Positions 301-11,136 of a stretch of DNA of 31,608 bases are shown piece by piece. The stretch is from a virus, in IMG/VR virus record IMGVR_UViG_3300023184_000364, positions 1 through 31,608 of that record; one strand, given 5' to 3'. Made by a program: the position numbers and the translations under genes. Position 1 is the stretch's first letter. Each line of letters starts with the position of its first letter. The notes beneath the pieces are model-generated. The model did not search any database. It worked only from the letters and a program-made list of their open reading frames with translations, and had not been told where the DNA came from.

Positions 301-1458
301 TTAGCATTGGTGAATTTTGTTTGGGGTATGGCATCCCATATTCCTACGGACGCCGTGTGTGGAATGAGGCTGGGTTCCCCTCGATCTGCGGGCGGGTTTT
401 TCCAAGGGCGTTTGAAACGTGGTCTGCACAGCCCCGCGGTCAACAAACTGGCGCAGATCTTCCACCTCATGCCGTTGGTAAAGTTGGTGGACTAGATGCG
501 AAGAATGGTTTACGAGTCGCATGGAAACAGATTGAGGCACCCCAGCCTTTCGGAGTTCGGTCACTCGCGTAACCCGTAAGGAATGAAAACAGTGAACACG
601 CAATCCCAACCGATTAAAAAGCTGGCGCCAGTAGTAGCTGGCTTTGGGCGGGATGGTGCAGGTCATCGTCTCGCCGTCGGATTTGATTTTTGTAAGCAGA
701 TCGACGAGGGCGGCGGGGATAGGGATGGTAAAGGACATTTCGGCGCCGCCTTTGGGGCAGGGGAAGGTCATCGTCTTGGCGGCCAAGTCCACCCCATCCA
801 GCGGAAGGGCAGTTTCACGGAGTCGGCAGCCAGTTGCCAGTCCGATCTCAAAACTTATTCCCATCCAACGGGGGAGAACCGGGGAGCTGAGGGCGGCTCG
901 CACCAGGGTAATCTGCTCGGGCGTAAAGGGCGGGAAGGATCGGATCTTGGGGGAGTATTTAATCCGGTAGTCGTCCAGGGCGTGAGTCTGCAAACGCCCC
1001 AACAGCCTGCCCTGCCTCTGAATCCATTTCATCATCTTGACGTCTCGGCAGGCTTGGTTGCGGTGGACTTGGTGGCCAGAGCGGTGGCGATGGGCATCGG
1101 CGGGGCGTCGATCTCCGCAACGCCAAACGATGTAGGCTTCAGCGGCCGCTGGTCCGAACTGGCTGAGTTGCAGGCCGTGCTCCGAAAGGAAAAGCTCCAG
1201 CCAGTTCCAAGAGTTCAGGTAATGGGAAATGGTCAAATGGCTTGCAGGCCAATTTTCTATGTGATATCTAACCCAGCCATGGTGCTCGAAAAGTTTTTCG
1301 TGTTCGTGGACGCTCAGCTCGGCCGCCTCGGCCAGCGCCTTGGCTCTGTGCAGTTGGGAGTCGGTTTGCCAGCGGGTAGTTTTTCCCTTCCAAATCCCGT
1401 CCGCTTTATATCGGATCGAGTAGGTCTTCTGGCCAGCTCGTTTATAAATCGAGGCCAT
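301..1458 (-). CDS. int: Tyrosine recombinase, phage integrase
   Basis: Site-specific recombinase that would integrate the phage at attP/attB. The 385-residue protein has the tyrosine recombinase layout: a basic N-terminal arm-binding region (about 1-60), a core-binding region (about 65-165) and a C-terminal catalytic domain. The visible catalytic residues are R212 in a TGCRLRE motif, a plausible lysine at K236, H292-x-x-R295, H318 in VNHSS and the nucleophile Y327 in QLYQR. The last 45 residues run past the usual end of the fold and are rich in basic residues and histidine. The gene is leftward, opposite to almost everything else, and its start lies about 90 bp from the tRNA-like attachment core. 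No Shine-Dalgarno sequence precedes the ATG. A 16-bp inverted repeat sits there instead. The 302-codon ORF on the opposite strand is a shadow. Confidence 0.9.
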   Translation of the reverse strand: MASIYKRAGQKTYSIRYKADGIWKGKTTRWQTDSQLHRAKALAEAAELSVHEHEKLFEHHGWVRYHIENWPASHLTISHYLNSWNWLELFLSEHGLQLSQFGPAAAEAYIVWRCGDRRPADAHRHRSGHQVHRNQACRDVKMMKWIQRQGRLLGRLQTHALDDYRIKYSPKIRSFPPFTPEQITLVRAALSSPVLPRWMGISFEIGLATGCRLRETALPLDGVDLAAKTMTFPCPKGGAEMSFTIPIPAALVDLLTKIKSDGETMTCTIPPKASYYWRQLFNRLGLRVHCFHSLRVTRVTELRKAGVPQSVSMRLVNHSSHLVHQLYQRHEVEDLRQFVDRGAVQTTFQTPLEKPARRSRGTQPHSTHGVRRNMGCHTPNKIHQC

Positions 1459-4113: not shown

Positions 4114-4554
4114 ATGAATCAAACGTTAATTTTTCCTGATCCACCGAAAATCTGTGATCCAGTTAAAACTGGATTTACCAATCAGGGGCAAATTGCCGAA
4201 CTTGCGGTTCAGATTGATTTATTAAACATGGGGCTTTCGGCAAATAGGATTGAAAACAAGCCTTATGACATATTGGTCGAGGGAAACGGGATTGTTTTGC
4301 GAGTCCAAGTAAAAAGCACTACCTACTTCAAACAAGACCACAAAGCCTATCAGTTTAAAACCTCCCGCACTGGAGACACGGAATATACTGCTCTGGATGC
4401 TGATTTATTTGCACTAAAGGTCGTAGATAATCCGCATATTTATTACTACCGTTTACAGCATAGGAATACTCCAAACCTTTACTTAAGCGCTAAGTTCTTC
4501 ACTCCAGAGGCGTCTGCTTCTAGTAAAAAAGAATTATTTAAGGACTTGCTGTGA
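4114..4554 (+). CDS. PD-(D/E)XK superfamily nuclease-like protein (146 aa)
   Basis: The N-terminal half has the restriction-endonuclease-like core: a helix with the conserved acid (GQIAELAV, E29), then YDILVEGNG with D52, then a strand with the catalytic signature VQVKS (Q65-V66-K67). The E...D...QxK arrangement, with G before the helix, matches the small PD-(D/E)XK group that includes the cyanobacterial intron homing enzyme and Holliday-junction-resolvase-like phage proteins. It also has an aromatic strand (IYYYRL) near residues 108-115. The likely role is nucleic-acid cleavage, as a resolvase, homing-type or defence/anti-defence nuclease. The gene is AT-rich and adjacent to an unknown gene of like composition. 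Its end overlaps the next gene's GTG. Confidence 0.7.
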   Translation: MNQTLIFPDPPKICDPVKTGFTNQGQIAELAVQIDLLNMGLSANRIENKPYDILVEGNGIVLRVQVKSTTYFKQDHKAYQFKTSRTGDTEYTALDADLFALKVVDNPHIYYYRLQHRNTPNLYLSAKFFTPEASASSKKELFKDLL

Positions 4555-5102
4555 AGTCTGTGATGGATCCGGCATCGGCGCCCGAGGCGTCGTACAGGGT
4601 GGACATAGCCGGGGAGGTGGACGGCCCCGAAGATATCCTTGCTGAAATTATCTGTGCTCAGATGCCGGGTGCGACTTTGACTCAAACGCTGGCCTGTGCC
4701 CGGCACGTGTACGAATGGACGCAGGCAAGGGCCGCCGAGGAAGTGAAGATCTCTTTGTCCCAAACAATCTCGCGGGTGGTGGCCGTCCTACTACGGCCCG
4801 GCAATACAAAGATGGCCTGCTGGGCGCTGGGCTTTGCTTGTGATCTGGGATCGCTCAATGGCATGCCATCGATGCGGGCGGCGGCCCGTGAGTTTGGCTG
4901 GACGGTGGCGGCCCTCTCTAAGCGGACGATCTGGTGGCGCGATCATCTAGGGATTCGTACGAACGCAAATTTTAAATCTGCAGGGGCAGTGGAATCTTAC
5001 CGATCGGTTCAACGTGGAAACCATTGGCGCCGTGCGTCGGTGGGGGTGGAGAAAACTAAATCTGATAACCAAAAGGGAATAATGAAATCATGCAAATCCT
5101 AG
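4551..5102 (+). CDS. Helix-turn-helix DNA-binding protein (183 aa)
   Basis: A soluble protein with a probable helix-turn-helix at residues 106-135 (SMRAAAREFGWTVAALSKR, then WWRDHLGI). This pattern is common in phage regulators related to sigma-type HTH domains. The N-terminal half is helical and acidic, and the C-terminal tail (about 145-183) is basic. It might control early transcription or replication, or bind the origin. The GTG start is supported by AAGGA 6 nt upstream and by overlap with the preceding TGA; an ATG 12 nt downstream is an alternative. The 3' end overlaps the next gene by 13 bp. Confidence 0.65.
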   Translation: MKSVMDPASAPEASYRVDIAGEVDGPEDILAEIICAQMPGATLTQTLACARHVYEWTQARAAEEVKISLSQTISRVVAVLLRPGNTKMACWALGFACDLGSLNGMPSMRAAAREFGWTVAALSKRTIWWRDHLGIRTNANFKSAGAVESYRSVQRGNHWRRASVGVEKTKSDNQKGIMKSCKS

Positions 5103-5740
5103 AATTGAAACGTCTGGATAATGAAGGCAGGACGGTGGAAAAGGTGCCCGGTGTGCGAATGACTGCAAATGGGCTGGTATTCGACAAACCTCTGACGATT
5201 GAGGAGTGGAAGGAGGTGGGGCATATGTTAAAGGCGGCCCGAACTGCGACGCTATGGTGGGAGGCAGACTGGATGCAGTACGGCAAAGCGTCCTACGAGG
5301 AGACTGACTGGGACGAGGCGGTAGATCAGCTAGAGTTTGATTTTGTAGGCGGTAAGTATGACCTGCTGATGAGTCTGGCGGCGGTGCCGCTGGAGCGAAG
5401 GCGCCCTGGGCTGAGTGCCCAGCACTACCAGTTCCTAACAAAGCTTCCAACGGTAAAGGAGCAGGATAAGTGGGCGAAGGTGGCGGAGGTGGAGAAGCTG
5501 ACCCCGATGGATTTAAAACGATCGATCGCCCAAGGTGAAGTGGTGCGCGGATCTGAAGAGAGGCAGGGCGGCGTCAACACGATTCAAGAGGTGGTGCGGA
5601 GTTTCTCTGAATGGCATAGGCAGGTGGAGTCGCGCGATCCGATAGAAAACTGGTCTAGGGAAAAGCACCGGGAGCTGCTTTCGGAGATGAAGGCGATCGT
5701 GGATCTAGTGGCGTTCTTACAGAATGAGGTACAGGGATGA
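5090..5740 (+). CDS. Phage/plasmid regulatory-type protein (216 aa)
   Basis: Belongs to a family I recognise from phages, plasmids and integrative elements but which has no settled name. The family has a lead-in such as LTIEEWKEVGHML, then a WWEADWMQYG block, then a helical region ending VPLERRRPGLSAQHY..L..LP...Q..W...., then a final helix resembling the DNA-binding part of ParB-type proteins (LTPMDLKRSI). These elements are seen in order at about residues 35-150. The C-terminal helix (about 165-214) may form a coiled coil. A role in replication control, partition or transcription is likely but not shown. It is coupled to both neighbours by overlaps. Confidence 0.65.
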   Translation: MQILELKRLDNEGRTVEKVPGVRMTANGLVFDKPLTIEEWKEVGHMLKAARTATLWWEADWMQYGKASYEETDWDEAVDQLEFDFVGGKYDLLMSLAAVPLERRRPGLSAQHYQFLTKLPTVKEQDKWAKVAEVEKLTPMDLKRSIAQGEVVRGSEERQGGVNTIQEVVRSFSEWHRQVESRDPIENWSREKHRELLSEMKAIVDLVAFLQNEVQG

Positions 5741-5907
5741 GCGGCCGCACGCCGATGGAGTTAATGACGGAAAAGTACGAGCGGTCGTTACGTCATATTG
5801 CTGAGCTGAAAAAGTTAATCTCAGATATGGAGTCTGGGCAGATGGATCTTGAAAATCCTGTGCGGGCGCGGGATGCGGTGTTGTTGGGGGCTGAAGTAAG
5901 CTCGTGA
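5737..5907 (+). CDS. Small helical early protein (56 aa)
   Basis: A 56-codon ORF linked at both ends: its ATG overlaps the previous TGA (ATGA) and its TGA overlaps the GTG of the primase-helicase gene (GTGA). The product is mostly one helix (about residues 7-33, MELMTEKYERSLRHIAELKK) followed by an acidic segment, so it is probably a small oligomeric or adaptor protein. The overlaps and GC-rich codons support it as a real gene. Its place just before the primase suggests a replication accessory role. No homologue is recognised. Confidence 0.6.
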   Translation: MSGRTPMELMTEKYERSLRHIAELKKLISDMESGQMDLENPVRARDAVLLGAEVSS

Positions 5908-8417
5908 CCATCCTAGAATTAAAAGCCACTGTGTCCCTTGCGGATACAGCGGCGAAGCTGGGTATTGTTAATTTCCCTTCTGGCACGGGAAAGATGTGCT
6001 CTCCGATACGGGCGGGGGATGAAAATCCTTCGTTTAATATCTACGAGGGCAAAGACGGATTACGCTGGAAGGATTTTGGCACGGGTGATGGTGGTGATCA
6101 GGTGACTCTGATCGAGAAGGTGCGCGGTGTAAGCCAAGGTGAGGCGATTAAGATTCTCCGCGAGTTTGCTGGCGATACGAGTGAGGCGCGATCGACCCGG
6201 CCAAAGGCGGCTCCTGGTGCCAAGCCAAAGCGCAATCTGGTAAAGACGTATTCGTATCTAAACGCAGACGGGACGCTGGCTCATCAGACTCTCAGGTATG
6301 AGCCGAAGGGGTTCTCTCAACGGCGGCCTGCTAAGGAGGGGGATCGGGTAGGCGAGAAGGCGGCCTCGAAAGATTATTTTGGTGGGTGGTGGTTGTGGAC
6401 GTTAAAGGGCTCGGAGCCTGTGCTCTATAATCTGCCTGAGTTAATCGCCCGGCCGGATGAGCCTGTCTGGTTTTGTGAGGGTGAGAAGGATGCGGATCTG
6501 GCGATGGAAATGGGGTGGTTGGCGACGACGGTGCCGATGGGTGCGGGGAAGTGGCGTGACAGCTACACGGCTGCGCTAGCGGGGCGAGTAGTAAACGTTT
6601 TTCAAGATAGTGATGCTCAAGGTGAGTCGCATGCTGAGTTGGTAGCAAGGGCCTTGGTATCGAAGCGTGGGCGGGTAAGGGTATTGGATTGGTCTAAGAT
6701 CTGGCCGGAGGGACGGCCGGAGAAGGCGGATCTGTCTTTGTACGTAGCCAAGTATGGTGATGGTGAAACGATGGCGGAGCTGGGCCGTAAGGTGCGTGAC
6801 GCGTACATGGAAACTTCAGACGACGCGGTGGATCGATATGAGTGGGACGTGGCCGAGGTGGTGAAGGCCGCCGACGATAAGGACGGCCGGACGCGGGTGG
6901 AGTTGCCTGGTAATGGAAAGCTATTGAGTGAGACGGCGGATGCGCTGGGCCTAGCCCTTAAAGATAAGATGTATCAGAGGGACGGGATCCCGGTGTATGT
7001 GACGGCGGCCGGACGGCTGGAAACTATGCCCAGCGAGAAGTTCCACACTTGGCTGGAGCTACACGTGGTGCCTTACAAACGGACGCAGGGCGGTGAGGAG
7101 AACGCATCGCTGAGCGATAAGGCGTCGGCAGGTGTTTTGGAGTCGTCGCAGTTCTGTAGGCATCTACGGCCCATCCGTGGGTATTCAGAGGTGCCGTTGC
7201 CTGTGTTTCGTAAGGATGGATCCTTAGATCTGCTTTCGACTGGTTATGATGAGGAGAGTCAGGTGCTCGTGCAGGAGTCGCAAGACTTTGCTAGGGATAT
7301 GGCTTTTGAAGATGCCCAGGCGTATCTGTTGGAGCTGATAAGCGAGTTCCCTTTTGGAGAGGAACCGTCTGAGCACGCGCGAGGTAAGGCGGTGGCGCTA
7401 GGTGCGATGTTTGCCCCCTTCCTAGATCTGTTGCTGGCAGTGCGGGAGCCGCGTCCCGCGTTTATCTTTAGCGCTAACAGTGAAGGTGCAGGCAAGACGT
7501 TGCTGTGCAGATATGCGGTGTGCCCAGTGTTCGGTCCAATGCAGATCACGGCCCCGCCGGACTCGAAAGGGCAGGATGAGCTAGCCAAGCTACTCAGTGC
7601 GTGCGCGATCGCTGGGGATCGCTACCTGGTGTTCGACAACTGGCGCGGTGAAATTAAGAGTAGCCCGTTGGAGGCGTTTATCACTGCTTCTACTTGGAAG
7701 GGGCGGCTGTTGGGATTGTCGAAAAGTTTTGTGGTGGATAAGAACACGCTAATCTTTATCACCTCGAACAGTGCTAGAGTAAATCCAGACATGCGAAGGC
7801 GGACGCTTCACCTAGCGTTACATGTTAAGGAGGCGTTTATTGAGGATAGAAAGTTCAAGAAGGATGTAAGTGAGGAGGATATTTTAAGGACTAGGGGAAC
7901 TATCTTAGCGGCGATGTGGGCGGTGGCTAAGCACTGGGATGATAGCGGACGGCCGCGTGGTACTCAGACCAATAGCTCCTTTCCCCGGTGGTCTGCTGAA
8001 ATCGGTGGGATCATTGAGATGGTGACGGGTGTGCATCCATGCCAGCGGGCCACGGTAAGCACTGACGATACCCTGCACGACATGAGCAAGCTGGTGGGTA
8101 CACAGTTCTTCGCAGGAGCCTCTACTTCATTCAGGGCAGCTACATTGATGGCTGATGCTAGGGAAAAGGGGTTGTTTCATTGGGTACTAGACGAGGACAT
8201 TCCAGAAAGAGAAGATGTGGTGCGCAAGGAGAGATCATCGTTTGGCAAGATCTTGGCTAGGTTTGATGGCAGGCAGTTTGGTGATCGCATACTAACGATT
8301 AAAGGCGAGGGCCATAGCCGAGAGATAGTCATCACAAGGATCTATCCAGACCATGTAGACCACCATGCGTCTGACCATGCAGAGTCCGATCCCGCTCCCT
8401 CTCAAGATGTTTCATGA
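5904..8417 (+). CDS. Primase-helicase replication protein (837 aa)
   Basis: A multidomain phage replication protein. The N-terminus (about 30-70) resembles a CHC2 primase zinc-finger fold: CSPIRAGDENPSF, then WKDFGTGDGGDQV. Only one cysteine remains, so it is a zinc-less version. A TOPRIM-type domain follows (about 185-265), with E192 in FCEGEKDAD and the acidic DSD at 235-237. The C-terminal part is a P-loop ATPase/helicase: Walker A GAGKT at 528-532, Walker B-like YLVFDNW at 574-580, a sensor-like strand ending ITSNS, and an arginine-rich MRRRT. It would prime and unwind DNA at the phage origin; no phage polymerase is seen, so it must use the host's. The GTG start overlaps the preceding stop. 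The extreme C-terminus (DHVDHHASDHAESD) is encoded by the origin-like repeats. Confidence 0.85.
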   Translation: MTILELKATVSLADTAAKLGIVNFPSGTGKMCSPIRAGDENPSFNIYEGKDGLRWKDFGTGDGGDQVTLIEKVRGVSQGEAIKILREFAGDTSEARSTRPKAAPGAKPKRNLVKTYSYLNADGTLAHQTLRYEPKGFSQRRPAKEGDRVGEKAASKDYFGGWWLWTLKGSEPVLYNLPELIARPDEPVWFCEGEKDADLAMEMGWLATTVPMGAGKWRDSYTAALAGRVVNVFQDSDAQGESHAELVARALVSKRGRVRVLDWSKIWPEGRPEKADLSLYVAKYGDGETMAELGRKVRDAYMETSDDAVDRYEWDVAEVVKAADDKDGRTRVELPGNGKLLSETADALGLALKDKMYQRDGIPVYVTAAGRLETMPSEKFHTWLELHVVPYKRTQGGEENASLSDKASAGVLESSQFCRHLRPIRGYSEVPLPVFRKDGSLDLLSTGYDEESQVLVQESQDFARDMAFEDAQAYLLELISEFPFGEEPSEHARGKAVALGAMFAPFLDLLLAVREPRPAFIFSANSEGAGKTLLCRYAVCPVFGPMQITAPPDSKGQDELAKLLSACAIAGDRYLVFDNWRGEIKSSPLEAFITASTWKGRLLGLSKSFVVDKNTLIFITSNSARVNPDMRRRTLHLALHVKEAFIEDRKFKKDVSEEDILRTRGTILAAMWAVAKHWDDSGRPRGTQTNSSFPRWSAEIGGIIEMVTGVHPCQRATVSTDDTLHDMSKLVGTQFFAGASTSFRAATLMADAREKGLFHWVLDEDIPEREDVVRKERSSFGKILARFDGRQFGDRILTIKGEGHSREIVITRIYPDHVDHHASDHAESDPAPSQDVS

Positions 8418-8603
8418 GGTTGCGCATGGTCGCCATGGTAGGTTGCTATAAAGGTGCGAATTACCCTCGCGTGCGCGTGCGCACCCGCGCGCGCGTGTTT
8501 AAATACCCAAGTGACCATGTTGACCATGTAACTCCCTCTGTATCTTCCTTATCTTCTATCTCTTACACACCTACATGGTCGGACACATGGTCGGCACATG
8601 GTG
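8349..8603. repeat. Oppositely oriented ACCATG boxes, candidate origin iterons
   Basis: The 8-mer GACCATGT or GACCATGC occurs at 8349-8356, 8373-8380, 8513-8520 and 8522-8529. Its complement (ACATGGTC, GCATGGTC or ACATGGTG) occurs at 8424-8431, 8573-8580, 8585-8592 and 8596-8603. The last three are spaced 12 and 11 bp apart, and the pair at 8513-8529 is 9 bp apart. The cluster begins inside the 3' end of the primase-helicase gene and fills most of the gap before terminase. Grouped short repeats beside a primase gene are typical of a replication origin bound by an initiator. An operator array is the alternative. Confidence 0.6.
8468..8506. other. Alternating GC tract plus AT-rich patch
   Basis: Positions 8468-8497 are almost purely alternating purine and pyrimidine (CGCGTGCGCGTGCGCAC, then CGCGCGCGTG after a short break), a sequence type able to adopt Z-DNA. 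It is directly followed by the AT-rich TTTAAATA (about 8498-8505). Such a pairing is compatible with a duplex-melting site and lies in the middle of the repeat cluster. The 89-codon ORF that crosses this stretch has a biased, low-complexity product and is probably not a gene. Confidence 0.5.
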
Positions 8604-8604
8604 G

Positions 8605-8652
8605 CTACTCAAGAGAAGGTGATCAGTCCACACAAGGAGTCTCCTTGAGTAG
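8605..8652. other. Long inverted repeat, candidate origin hairpin or transcription stop
   Basis: CTACTCAAG (8605-8613) is perfectly complementary to CTTGAGTAG (8644-8652), with 30 nt between. The pairing extends by three more pairs (AGA with TCT) after a one-base bulge. Nested in the 3' arm is a second palindrome, AAGGAG-T-CTCCTT (8634-8646), so two alternative folds compete. No T run follows, so it is not a standard terminator. It could be a single-strand origin, primase loading site or regulatory RNA element. Confidence 0.5.
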
Positions 8653-8678
8653 AAACTCTGCGGTGGAAACGACTCCCG

Positions 8679-8684
8679 TATAAT
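8679..8684 (+). promoter_or_regulatory. Candidate -10 box for late/packaging operon
   Basis: A perfect TATAAT lies about 50 bp before the terminase small-subunit ATG. No consensus -35 is seen at 17 bp; the nearest TTGA-type hexamer (8645-8650) is too far away. It may be an activated late promoter needing a phage factor. Confidence 0.4.
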
Positions 8685-8735
8685 CCGCGTAAGGAACTTA
8701 ACTGCTGGGTAAGGTTGACAGGTTGCGTCCATGTT

Positions 8736-9338
8736 ATGACGGCCACTGATATAGCAAGGGAATGGGGGTGCTCACGGCAAGCGGTCGCCAAGTGGGTGGC
8801 CAAGGGGATGCCTCTTAACAATCTAGCAGAGGCTACAGCATGGAGATCGGTTAACGGCCAGCGGGCGCCTCGGGTGCAGTTGGCCGCGGCCGTGTCCGCA
8901 CATTCTGCAACGCATACCGATCGCCCATCGATGGAACCTATTCAGCCTGGCGAGGATCCGGGCGTGGCTGAGTACCGTAGGCACGCCGACGCGGCGGCCC
9001 GCTTCGTCTGGGCATGCGTGAAAGAATTGATTGAAGCATCAGAAGCCAAGGATCCGATGCGGATGCGTGGTGCTTTTTCGGTTTTACCAAAACTACAGGA
9101 CAACGCGATCAAGCGGCACAACGATTACGAGCGTGCTAGGACGGCCGCTGGGTTTGTGATGCCACGTTCGACGCATGTGGAAGCTATGGATCGAGTGTTT
9201 AGAGAAATGAGGGCCGGACTGGATGACTTGATGCGGACGGCCCCGCCACGTTTAGAAATGTTAAAGACTGAAGAGGTGAATGTATGGATCACGGAGTATT
9301 GCACTCGGCTGATGGCTCGAATGATTCACGGAGCATGA
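8736..9338 (+). CDS. Terminase small subunit, Nu1-like (200 aa)
   Basis: DNA-recognition subunit of the packaging motor. Residues about 3-26 (ATDIAREWGCSRQAVAKWV, then KGMP) form the winged helix-turn-helix of the lambda Nu1 family, which binds near cos and bends DNA. The middle (about 75-125) is a helical dimerisation region. The C-terminal part (WITEYCTRLMARM) would contact the large subunit. The gene lies directly before the GpA-type large terminase, the canonical order. I prefer ATG 8736 over the in-frame TTG at 8715, because the Nu1 domain starts within a few residues of it. Neither has a clear Shine-Dalgarno sequence; TTGACA sits 15 nt before the ATG. Confidence 0.8.
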   Translation: MTATDIAREWGCSRQAVAKWVAKGMPLNNLAEATAWRSVNGQRAPRVQLAAAVSAHSATHTDRPSMEPIQPGEDPGVAEYRRHADAAARFVWACVKELIEASEAKDPMRMRGAFSVLPKLQDNAIKRHNDYERARTAAGFVMPRSTHVEAMDRVFREMRAGLDDLMRTAPPRLEMLKTEEVNVWITEYCTRLMARMIHGA

Positions 9339-9342
9339 TTTT

Positions 9343-11136
9343 ATGGCGATTAACAATCATCATGCAGAACAAGAGGCGCGGGCGAAGCATATGCGTCCCG
9401 GCTTTGGGTCGGTCTCAGGATGGGCGGAATCGAATCTACAGTTCAGCGATCGGTACTCAAAAGTTCAGCCTGGTAAGTTTAGTTTAGATCGCATGCCCTA
9501 TCTGCGGGAGGTGATCGACGCATCGACGGATCCTCGGGTGCATGAGTTGGTTTTATGTTTTGCGGTTCAGTCGGGTAAGTCCACGGCCCTCCAGGTGATG
9601 CTTGCGCACCGGGTGGCCGCACGGCCGACGGCATCGATGATGGTCCTGCCTTCTTTAAAATTGGCGCGCAGCATCAGCCAGGAGAAATGGCTGGAGCTGG
9701 TTAAGTGTAATCCGTGCTTAACGGAAAAGATGCCCGCCGATCGAGATCTAATTAAATTAGACGAGCAGAGATTTAAGGACGCGACCGTCTGGTGGGTGGG
9801 CGCTGGATCTGATGCGAATCTTTCCAGCCGATCTGCTGGTCTTGTCTTTGCCGATGAGATCGACAAGTTCCCAGACTGGGGCGACAAGGAGGCTCCGCCT
9901 CTCCAGCTCGTCGGCGCCCGCATGGAGTCTTTCGCCGATTGGCTTTTCGTCATGGCATCGACCCCGACGCTGGATCGAGGGGTGAACATCTGGACCGAGT
10001 ACGAGCGTGGCGACAAAAGGGTCTACATGGTTCCATGCCCGTTTTGTAAGCATCAGTTAGAATTAGGGTGGGAGGGGATCAAGTACGACGCGGCCGCGTT
10101 CGATGAAGATTCGGCCACTTGGAACTATGATCGTGTGGCTGAGTCTACGCGATACGAGTGTCCAGGGTGCCGAGAGCTGATCGGACACGAACATAAGGCC
10201 GCTATGCTCACCGCCGGGCATTGGAAGCCCACCGCACTGGGCGAGCCCGGCCGCCGCTCCTATCATCTTAACTCACTCTACTCCCCGTTTAAAAAGTGGG
10301 GGGAGCTGAGCGTCCGCTTCCTGCAAGACAAAGACAGCCCCCGCGGTCTGCACTATTTTGTAAACTCTTACCTAGCCCGGCCGTGGTCCCCGTCTGCCAC
10401 CACCGTAAAGTCCAGCAACGTAGAGGACGTGATCCAGTCATCACCAGAATACATCATGGGCGAGATACCGCGGGAACCTGATTCAATGTTCATGACGGTA
10501 GACGTCCAGCAAACCGAACTCTGGTATCTTATCCGCGCCTCTGGAATGTCCGCAGGCAAACGATGGACGGCCATGGTCGACTACGGCACGTGTGTTGGTT
10601 GGGACGCGATCTCTGCAAAATTTCAAGAGGAGTACACGGTTAAAGATTGCCCAGGCAAAACCATGAAGTGCATAGGTGGCCTCGTCGACTCCGGCTACGC
10701 GGCCCGTCGGACAGGTGGCGTCTACGAGTTTGTTTTAAACAGTGGAAACAGATTTTGGGCGAGCAAGGGCAGGGGAGTCACCGTCGGAATGAAATCGAGC
10801 GTCGTAAAGCAGACGATCGAGCACCGCGGCCGCCTGGTCAAAATGGTCCAGTACGACGACAACCTCTGGAAAGAACGCCTCTACTTAAACAAAATCAAAG
10901 ACCGCGACGGCGGAGATTGGTGGCTCCCTCGTAATACTGGGCGCGACTACATCGCCCAGCTTACCGCCGAACGACTTGTCGAGCGCCGCATGAAATTCGG
11001 CCACAAAGAACTTCAGTGGGAAGTGGTCGGCGGGAACCACTTGGGCGACTGCGAAAAAATGCAGCTTATTTTACTCGAGAGCATGACCATAAAAGAACCC
11101 ACCCCAGCACCAGTACAGGAGCCCGTACCCGTATGA
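9343..11136 (+). CDS. Terminase large subunit, GpA family (597 aa)
   Basis: ATP-driven packaging motor and endonuclease that cuts concatemers and loads DNA into the prohead. The ATPase domain has an atypical Walker A with QSGKST (AVQSGKST, residues 74-81) and Walker B LVFADEID (167-174), both standard for the GpA family. A coupling-type motif (MASTPT) follows near residue 205. A zinc-binding insertion (CPFCKH, then CPGC) follows at about 230-290. The C-terminal nuclease domain includes DVQ and DSG motifs (about residues 385 and 450). At 597 aa it is near the usual length of about 640. It follows the small subunit by 4 bp and overlaps the next ORF by ATGA. The proline-rich end is normal. Confidence 0.92.
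   Translation: MAINNHHAEQEARAKHMRPGFGSVSGWAESNLQFSDRYSKVQPGKFSLDRMPYLREVIDASTDPRVHELVLCFAVQSGKSTALQVMLAHRVAARPTASMMVLPSLKLARSISQEKWLELVKCNPCLTEKMPADRDLIKLDEQRFKDATVWWVGAGSDANLSSRSAGLVFADEIDKFPDWGDKEAPPLQLVGARMESFADWLFVMASTPTLDRGVNIWTEYERGDKRVYMVPCPFCKHQLELGWEGIKYDAAAFDEDSATWNYDRVAESTRYECPGCRELIGHEHKAAMLTAGHWKPTALGEPGRRSYHLNSLYSPFKKWGELSVRFLQDKDSPRGLHYFVNSYLARPWSPSATTVKSSNVEDVIQSSPEYIMGEIPREPDSMFMTVDVQQTELWYLIRASGMSAGKRWTAMVDYGTCVGWDAISAKFQEEYTVKDCPGKTMKCIGGLVDSGYAARRTGGVYEFVLNSGNRFWASKGRGVTVGMKSSVVKQTIEHRGRLVKMVQYDDNLWKERLYLNKIKDRDGGDWWLPRNTGRDYIAQLTAERLVERRMKFGHKELQWEVVGGNHLGDCEKMQLILLESMTIKEPTPAPVQEPVPV

Follow-up and report, generated by a model that had tools for sequence, protein, structure and literature searches.

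Does the cluster of ACCATG boxes that starts within the 3' end of a phage primase-helicase gene and ends shortly before the terminase genes function as a replication origin, as the original prediction for this DNA proposed, or does it serve packaging, transcription or some other purpose? The sequence analyzed is the 31,608-base virus record IMGVR_UViG_3300023184_000364 (positions 1 to 31,608), hereafter the window.

Genomic context of the array

The array is flanked on the left by a replication cluster that includes genes for a PD-(D/E)XK endonuclease-like protein (4114-4554, PF11645), a conserved small protein with a weak helix-turn-helix (HTH) match (gene 4551, 4551-5102, plus strand), a conserved protein with no function assigned (gene 5090, 5090-5740, plus strand) and an 837-aa primase-helicase (5904-8417, plus strand) that consists of a TOPRIM-type primase part and a P-loop helicase part and yields PHROG primase/helicase matches. 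On the right are the genes for the Nu1-like terminase small subunit, TerS (8733-9338, plus strand, phrog_57), the terminase large subunit of the lambda gpA type, TerL (9343-11136, plus strand, PF05876 and PF20454), and a lambda-type portal. An integrase gene (301-1458, minus strand) is identified by profile matches. The window opens with a run of 23 C (1-24), and the contig of one relative, G002 (locus L060), finishes in a run of C; such a poly-C tract in this phage group may interrupt assemblies or differ in length.

TerL searches of IMG/VR identified 37 related loci. A TerL search of genome contigs for the prophage and its host returned only relatives with 24-29% identity and found neither, and a tblastn search of phage isolates with gene 5090 and TerS produced no match. 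The window and its near relatives have a single fused primase-helicase gene, whereas L033 (2494-5039) and L044 (2485-5039), which are more distant, encode the primase and the helicase in two overlapping genes, of 311 and about 542 aa.

Architecture of the array

The original prediction described a box cluster in both orientations, which is indeed present, but its count of eight boxes, four per orientation, is too low: ten exact ACCATG boxes, five per strand, lie within 8350-8602, arranged as >>> << GC tract >> <<< over a span of 253 bp. The outer left triple (8350-8379, plus strand; boxes at 8350, 8362 and 8374 in 12-bp steps) lies in the last codons of the primase-helicase gene, as originally noted, and encodes the Asp/His-rich end of the helicase, thus accounting for this previously recognized oddity. 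It is followed, at a distance of 51 bp, by the inner left pair (8425-8439, minus strand; boxes at 8425 and 8434, 9-bp step), and then by the inner right pair (8514-8528, plus strand; boxes at 8514 and 8523, 9-bp step, ACCATGTTGACCATGT) and the outer right triple (8574-8602, minus strand; boxes at 8574, 8586 and 8597, in 12- and 11-bp steps).

The boxes form five mirror pairs with midpoints at 8476.0, 8476.5, 8476.5, 8476.5 and 8476.5, i.e., the array has dyad symmetry to within 1 bp, a degree of symmetry that was not reached once when ten oriented boxes were placed at random 200,000 times. Across the whole window, ACCATG occurs 28 times against 12.8 expected, a number not reached in any of 100 shuffles, whereas outside the array it is unremarkable (18 matches in 31 kb). 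The maximum cluster of any 6-mer within 260 bp in 40 dinucleotide shuffles of the window is 5, compared to the observed 10, and this is the only iteron-like array in the genome, with 10 copies versus at most 5 for unrelated 6-mers. The mirror symmetry was absent from the original prediction, as was the lambda-type cos about 60 bp to the right.

The symmetry axis at 8476.5 falls within a GC-rich tract (8468-8497) that was previously described as alternating purine-pyrimidine; the tract is present, but the alternation is not strict, with one break (ACCCG). Its distance to the inner right pair is 15-16 bp throughout the relatives, and it could adopt Z-DNA or a hairpin, although the predicted DNA hairpin, at -13.8 kcal/mol, has a z-score of only -1.6. 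The TTTAAATA sequence that was also singled out originally is found in the window, but the relatives carry TTTGGGTA or TTTGTATG instead. In the right half of the array, the two opposed clusters are separated by a 45-bp AT-rich gap (8529-8573, 62% AT), a candidate unwinding (or bending) element, which is among the least stable 2.3% of the 45-bp windows of this genome. The corresponding gap belongs to the least stable 0-1.6% in seven relatives and 9.8% in G001, so that an easily melted AT-rich segment inside the array falls within the least stable 2.3% in eight of the nine genomes.

Conservation of the array

Every locus with DNA upstream of TerS in the normal order possesses the array; L021 (IMGVR_UViG_3300020042_011790) seems to be chimeric, given that TerS is preceded by inverted TerL sequence. 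The array-bearing relatives reach down to 60-62% identity in TerL and 59-60% in the helicase, and the array is present in the helicase relatives found, wherever the contig includes the helicase 3' end. Searches for cases in which the linkage of array, terminase and helicase is broken, started from TerL, the helicase, gene 5090 and box patterns, retrieved the same contigs again, with the array never apart from either neighbor. At greater distances, no comparable array was detected in the terminase regions of six distant TerL-bearing phages, nor in Moulinsart, a distant helicase/terminase relative.

In an alignment of ten lineages, 92 of the 100 box positions (ten boxes in ten lineages) carry an exact ACCATG core: the boxes of the outer left triple are exact in nine, four and ten lineages, those of the outer right triple in ten, ten and nine, both boxes of the inner left pair in all ten, and the inner right pair likewise in all ten. 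Column identity is 98.5% in the boxes and 90% in the GC tract, compared to 63% for the other intergenic bases. The prediction that the boxes would be conserved in relatives is thus borne out, but not the accompanying expectation of changed spacing, because the box-to-box distances are constant inside each half (12+12, 51 and 9 on the left; 9, 51, 12 and 11 on the right). The middle gap, by contrast, varies, with 80 bp in the window, 79 bp in L025 and 88 bp in the other lineages. A pattern search in which the gap could be 3-6 bp within a box pair and 38-52 bp from one cluster to the opposed one identified 14 contigs, and all matches are 78 bp long, so that the gaps are always exactly 3 and 45 bp. 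The combination of fixed spacings within the halves and a changing middle gap indicates two rigid half-modules with a variable center between them.

In five loci (L033, L038, L039, L044 and L054), an eleventh, forward ACCATG box follows 11 bp past the last right box and forms a box-box inverted repeat with it. Judging from the sequences, this spot appears to retain some hairpin potential while the sequence itself changes: the repeat at 8605-8652 in the window is unrelated, and L025 has yet another one. In L033 and L044 (5060-5965), a 301-aa open frame extends from an ATG in the inner left boxes through the array and cos into TerS; because the matching frame in the window stops at 8683, this is probably a chance opening.

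A cos site next to the array

Several contigs of this group from different metagenomes start at the base homologous to 8663, upstream of TerS, with the sequences GTGGCGACGACT (L032, L036 and L041), GTTGGAACGACT (L020 and L024) and GCTGTTAAAGCC (L045 and L047). Given that several IMG/VR contigs end exactly at this point, their start represents a true virion end and not a random break. The complete 31,510-bp relative, G001, starts with GTGGCGACGACTCCCG, ends with CTGCGGTGGCGACGACT and carries the array within its last 320 bases; its 12-bp terminal direct repeat, GTGGCGACGACT, matches window positions 8663-8674 and is what filled-in 12-base cohesive ends are expected to produce. Both ends of another relative, the 33,144-base G006, also lie near this point. 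Thus, cosN is assigned to the 12-base cohesive-end sequence GTGGAAACGACT (8663-8674, plus strand), which begins with the first base of the left virion end, and the central GC tract, considered as an alternative cosN, was dropped because the contig ends map to 8663. Because the window contig runs through cos, the sampled DNA would have been circular, concatemeric or prophage.

In lambda-like phages, the cohesive ends are 5' extensions of 12 bases, and the parts of cos follow the order cosQ-cosN-cosB (PMC4669245). By sequence, the 12-base ends next to TerS point to a cos of the lambda type, with the polarity of the overhang assumed, and the predicted gpA-type TerL and Nu1-type TerS are the terminase subunits that accompany such a site. 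The alignment reveals two further conserved blocks. The first (8632-8645, plus strand; ACAAGGAGTCTCCT in the window, GTAAGGAATCTTTT in relatives) is located about 20-30 bp left of cosN, and its position relative to lambda cosQ suggests a cosQ-like function. The second (8710-8725, plus strand, TAAGGTTGACAGGTTG, about 90% identical columns) is a 16-bp block at bp 48-63 from the left end that contains no ACCATG box and is a candidate TerS-binding site (cosB); R3 of lambda is at bp 50-65 (PMC9026076). In a cosB of the lambda type, R sites would be expected from about bp 50 to 165, on the stretch from cosN to TerS, and this block is the one R3-like candidate there. With these two blocks, all parts of a lambda-type cos can be placed without recourse to the array.

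Two other elements that the original prediction assigned to the origin fall into this cos zone, namely the inverted repeat CTACTCAAG/CTTGAGTAG (8605-8613/8644-8652) and the TATAAT at 8679-8684. Both are present but not conserved in sequence, and they were rejected as origin parts. A search of this region for promoters and terminators gave no match, an Rfam search retrieved nothing, and the hairpin energies are little or no better than those of shuffled sequences.

The proximity of the two sites raises the possibility that the array is itself a terminase-recognition element, an unusually large cosB-like structure on the helicase side of cosN. TerS dimers of the Nu1-like family would then bridge the opposed clusters, bend the 45-bp gaps and position TerL at cosN, with the bending analogous to that by IHF between R3 and R2 in lambda cosB. 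Consistent with such a role, cosN is only 61 bp right of the last box; the arrangement of opposed clusters around an AT-rich gap that could bend is reminiscent of lambda cosB, in which R2 has the reverse orientation to R3 and R1 and the IHF site lies between R3 and R2 (PMC4669245); and the DNA-binding end of TerS (GCSRQAVAKWV) is nearly invariant in the relatives while the remainder of TerS diverges, which matches the invariant boxes. Nevertheless, the box-free R3-like block at the position of lambda R3, together with the cosQ-like block, makes up a normal cos in which the array has no part. Furthermore, the array, at -313 to -61 relative to cosN, is on the wrong side, away from TerS, whereas lambda terminase remains on the cosB end next to TerS. 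Box steps of 9 bp leave too little room for R sites of 16 bp, and the 253 bp of the array plus cos would exceed 350 bp, compared to about 200 bp for lambda cos. Taken together, these features render a terminase-recognition array unlikely, although it is the main competitor of the origin reading. A distinct cos of the usual kind, with conserved blocks of its own, accounts for packaging without the array and was counted in favor of the origin.

The array as a probable replication origin

The array is probably an iteron-type replication origin, located directly downstream of the primase-helicase gene in a phage with a lambda-type cos. This is the best reading given the placement of the array, the conserved spaced boxes, its uniqueness in the genome, its symmetry and the easily melted gap. 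The repeats begin in the 3' end of the helicase gene, which corresponds to the location of the SaPI and SCCmec origins, and are kept as spaced sites with free spacers. Thus, the central claim of the original prediction is retained for the array, whereas the inverted repeat and TATAAT are reassigned to the cos region and GC skew offers no support. The switch in skew anticipated near 8.5 kb is not observed at the array: the cumulative skew of the window peaks at 10.2 kb, and G001 shows positive skew left and right of the array alike, although this test is weak and non-defining in phages with one-directional gene order. Also counted against the origin are the GC-rich, rather than AT-rich, center of the array and its absence from Moulinsart.

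Under the origin reading, an initiator would bind the ten ACCATG boxes. In each half (>>> 51 << and >> 51 <<<), two opposed clusters would be occupied about five helical turns apart, a distance at which the bound proteins could meet by looping or bending of the 45-bp gap. Two helicase assemblies, oppositely directed, would be loaded by the mirror-image halves, the AT-rich gap at 8529-8573 would open, and bidirectional theta replication of the circularized phage would begin. We infer the identity of the binder, the opening of DNA at the gap and the start of replication at the array from these features.

The most likely initiator is the primase-helicase, acting through its C-terminal domain, and the product of gene 4551 is an alternative candidate by virtue of its HTH match. 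In the last 100 residues of the helicase, the predicted order of helices and strands would fit a winged-helix domain, at a low AlphaFold pLDDT of about 60; the models of both proteins are poor overall, too poor for a fold search, and a comparison of the C-terminal part of the helicase with PDB sequences detected no match to a solved origin-binding domain, so the assignment of the binder is inferential.

Other readings of the array

In every case, the array adjoins cos and TerS as well as the helicase gene. Because the three always co-occur, this linkage is not specific to replication, and the comparative data do not separate replication from terminase recognition. A combined ori-cos control element can be envisaged, in which the replication initiator and the terminase would both use the boxes (or the terminase alone would do so, via two DNA hairpins lying across cosN from where lambda has cosB), so that packaging would be linked to the completion of replication; we regard this version as improbable.

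Transcription control, either by autoregulation of the replication operon or by an operator or enhancer acting on the late (terminase) operon, would fit the position of the array between early and late genes and the HTH protein encoded upstream by gene 4551. A regulator does not usually require as many as ten strictly mirrored sites spread over 253 bp, the search for promoters and terminators was negative, and the TATAAT is not conserved, so that this role, too, appears doubtful.

Arrays of short boxes are typical of partition sites, and a centromere-like site for partition or plasmid maintenance in an extrachromosomal prophage state would account for such an array. Against this very improbable explanation, the window encodes an integrase, and no ParA-like family match was found among the scanned window proteins, which are those encoded outside the tail region.

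Finally, the notion that the boxes mirror only the His/Asp-rich protein end or the overlapping ORF 8414-8683 can be dismissed, even though the helicase reading frame includes three boxes and this ORF overlaps the other seven, because those seven lie outside the helicase gene, the 8-bp difference in the inner gap among lineages breaks the ORF frame, which therefore is not the cause of the boxes, and the spacers diverge while the boxes do not. Coding constraint being refuted by the alignment, the array is best described, from its sequence pattern, as a set of predicted protein-binding sites in two rigid half-modules.

Relationship to known systems

Both an iteron-type origin beside its helicase and a lambda-type cos are known; as far as the searched collections show, the strict mirror-image plan of four clusters around a central GC tract, at a distance of 60 bp from cos, is new. 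If the array is indeed an origin, this group of uncultured phages offers a concrete, testable origin of unusual mirror-image architecture together with a cos that defines the true genome ends, a clean case for two-direction loading of an initiator helicase, and replication and packaging sites 60 bp apart, which poses the problem of how they avoid or use each other.

The origins of SaPIs contain iteron arrays directly downstream of the initiator helicase, and a putative origin of SCCmec is supported by biochemical evidence; in these systems, the C-terminal domain of the helicase binds the iterons, in the case of SaPI Rep apparently as two hexamers (PMC7581432). The SaPI Rep-ori, SCCmec Cch2 and the window share short repeats directly downstream of the helicase gene, and the SaPI/SCCmec initiator helicase works with a primase, which is a further likeness. 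The window differs in its four clusters, strict mirror plan and central GC tract, and it is neither a satellite nor a cassette but a complete phage with a cos; the resemblance to SaPI Rep is one of gene arrangement, not of sequence homology.

The origin sites of phage P4 consist of short repeats in both orientations. The alpha protein of P4 is a primase-helicase fusion (PMC7145576), and the window likewise encodes both activities in one protein, unlike those relatives in which the genes are split. Compared to P4 alpha, its origin and crr, the window has only one array, which has a fixed mirror geometry and lies at the gene's 3' end, and the two are likened by layout, not by homology.

In lambda, the O iterons are direct repeats that overlap the replication gene and are bound by the initiator. 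The window array also overlaps a replication gene, but comprises two mirrored halves that are mostly outside it. The cos regions of lambda and the window are alike in their 12-base cohesive ends, gpA-type TerL, Nu1-like TerS, and R3-like and left cosQ-like blocks; they differ in the ten-box array opposite to the cosB side, in the cohesive end GTGGAAACGACT, which is not that of lambda, and in the short distance, about 70 bp, from cosN to TerS.
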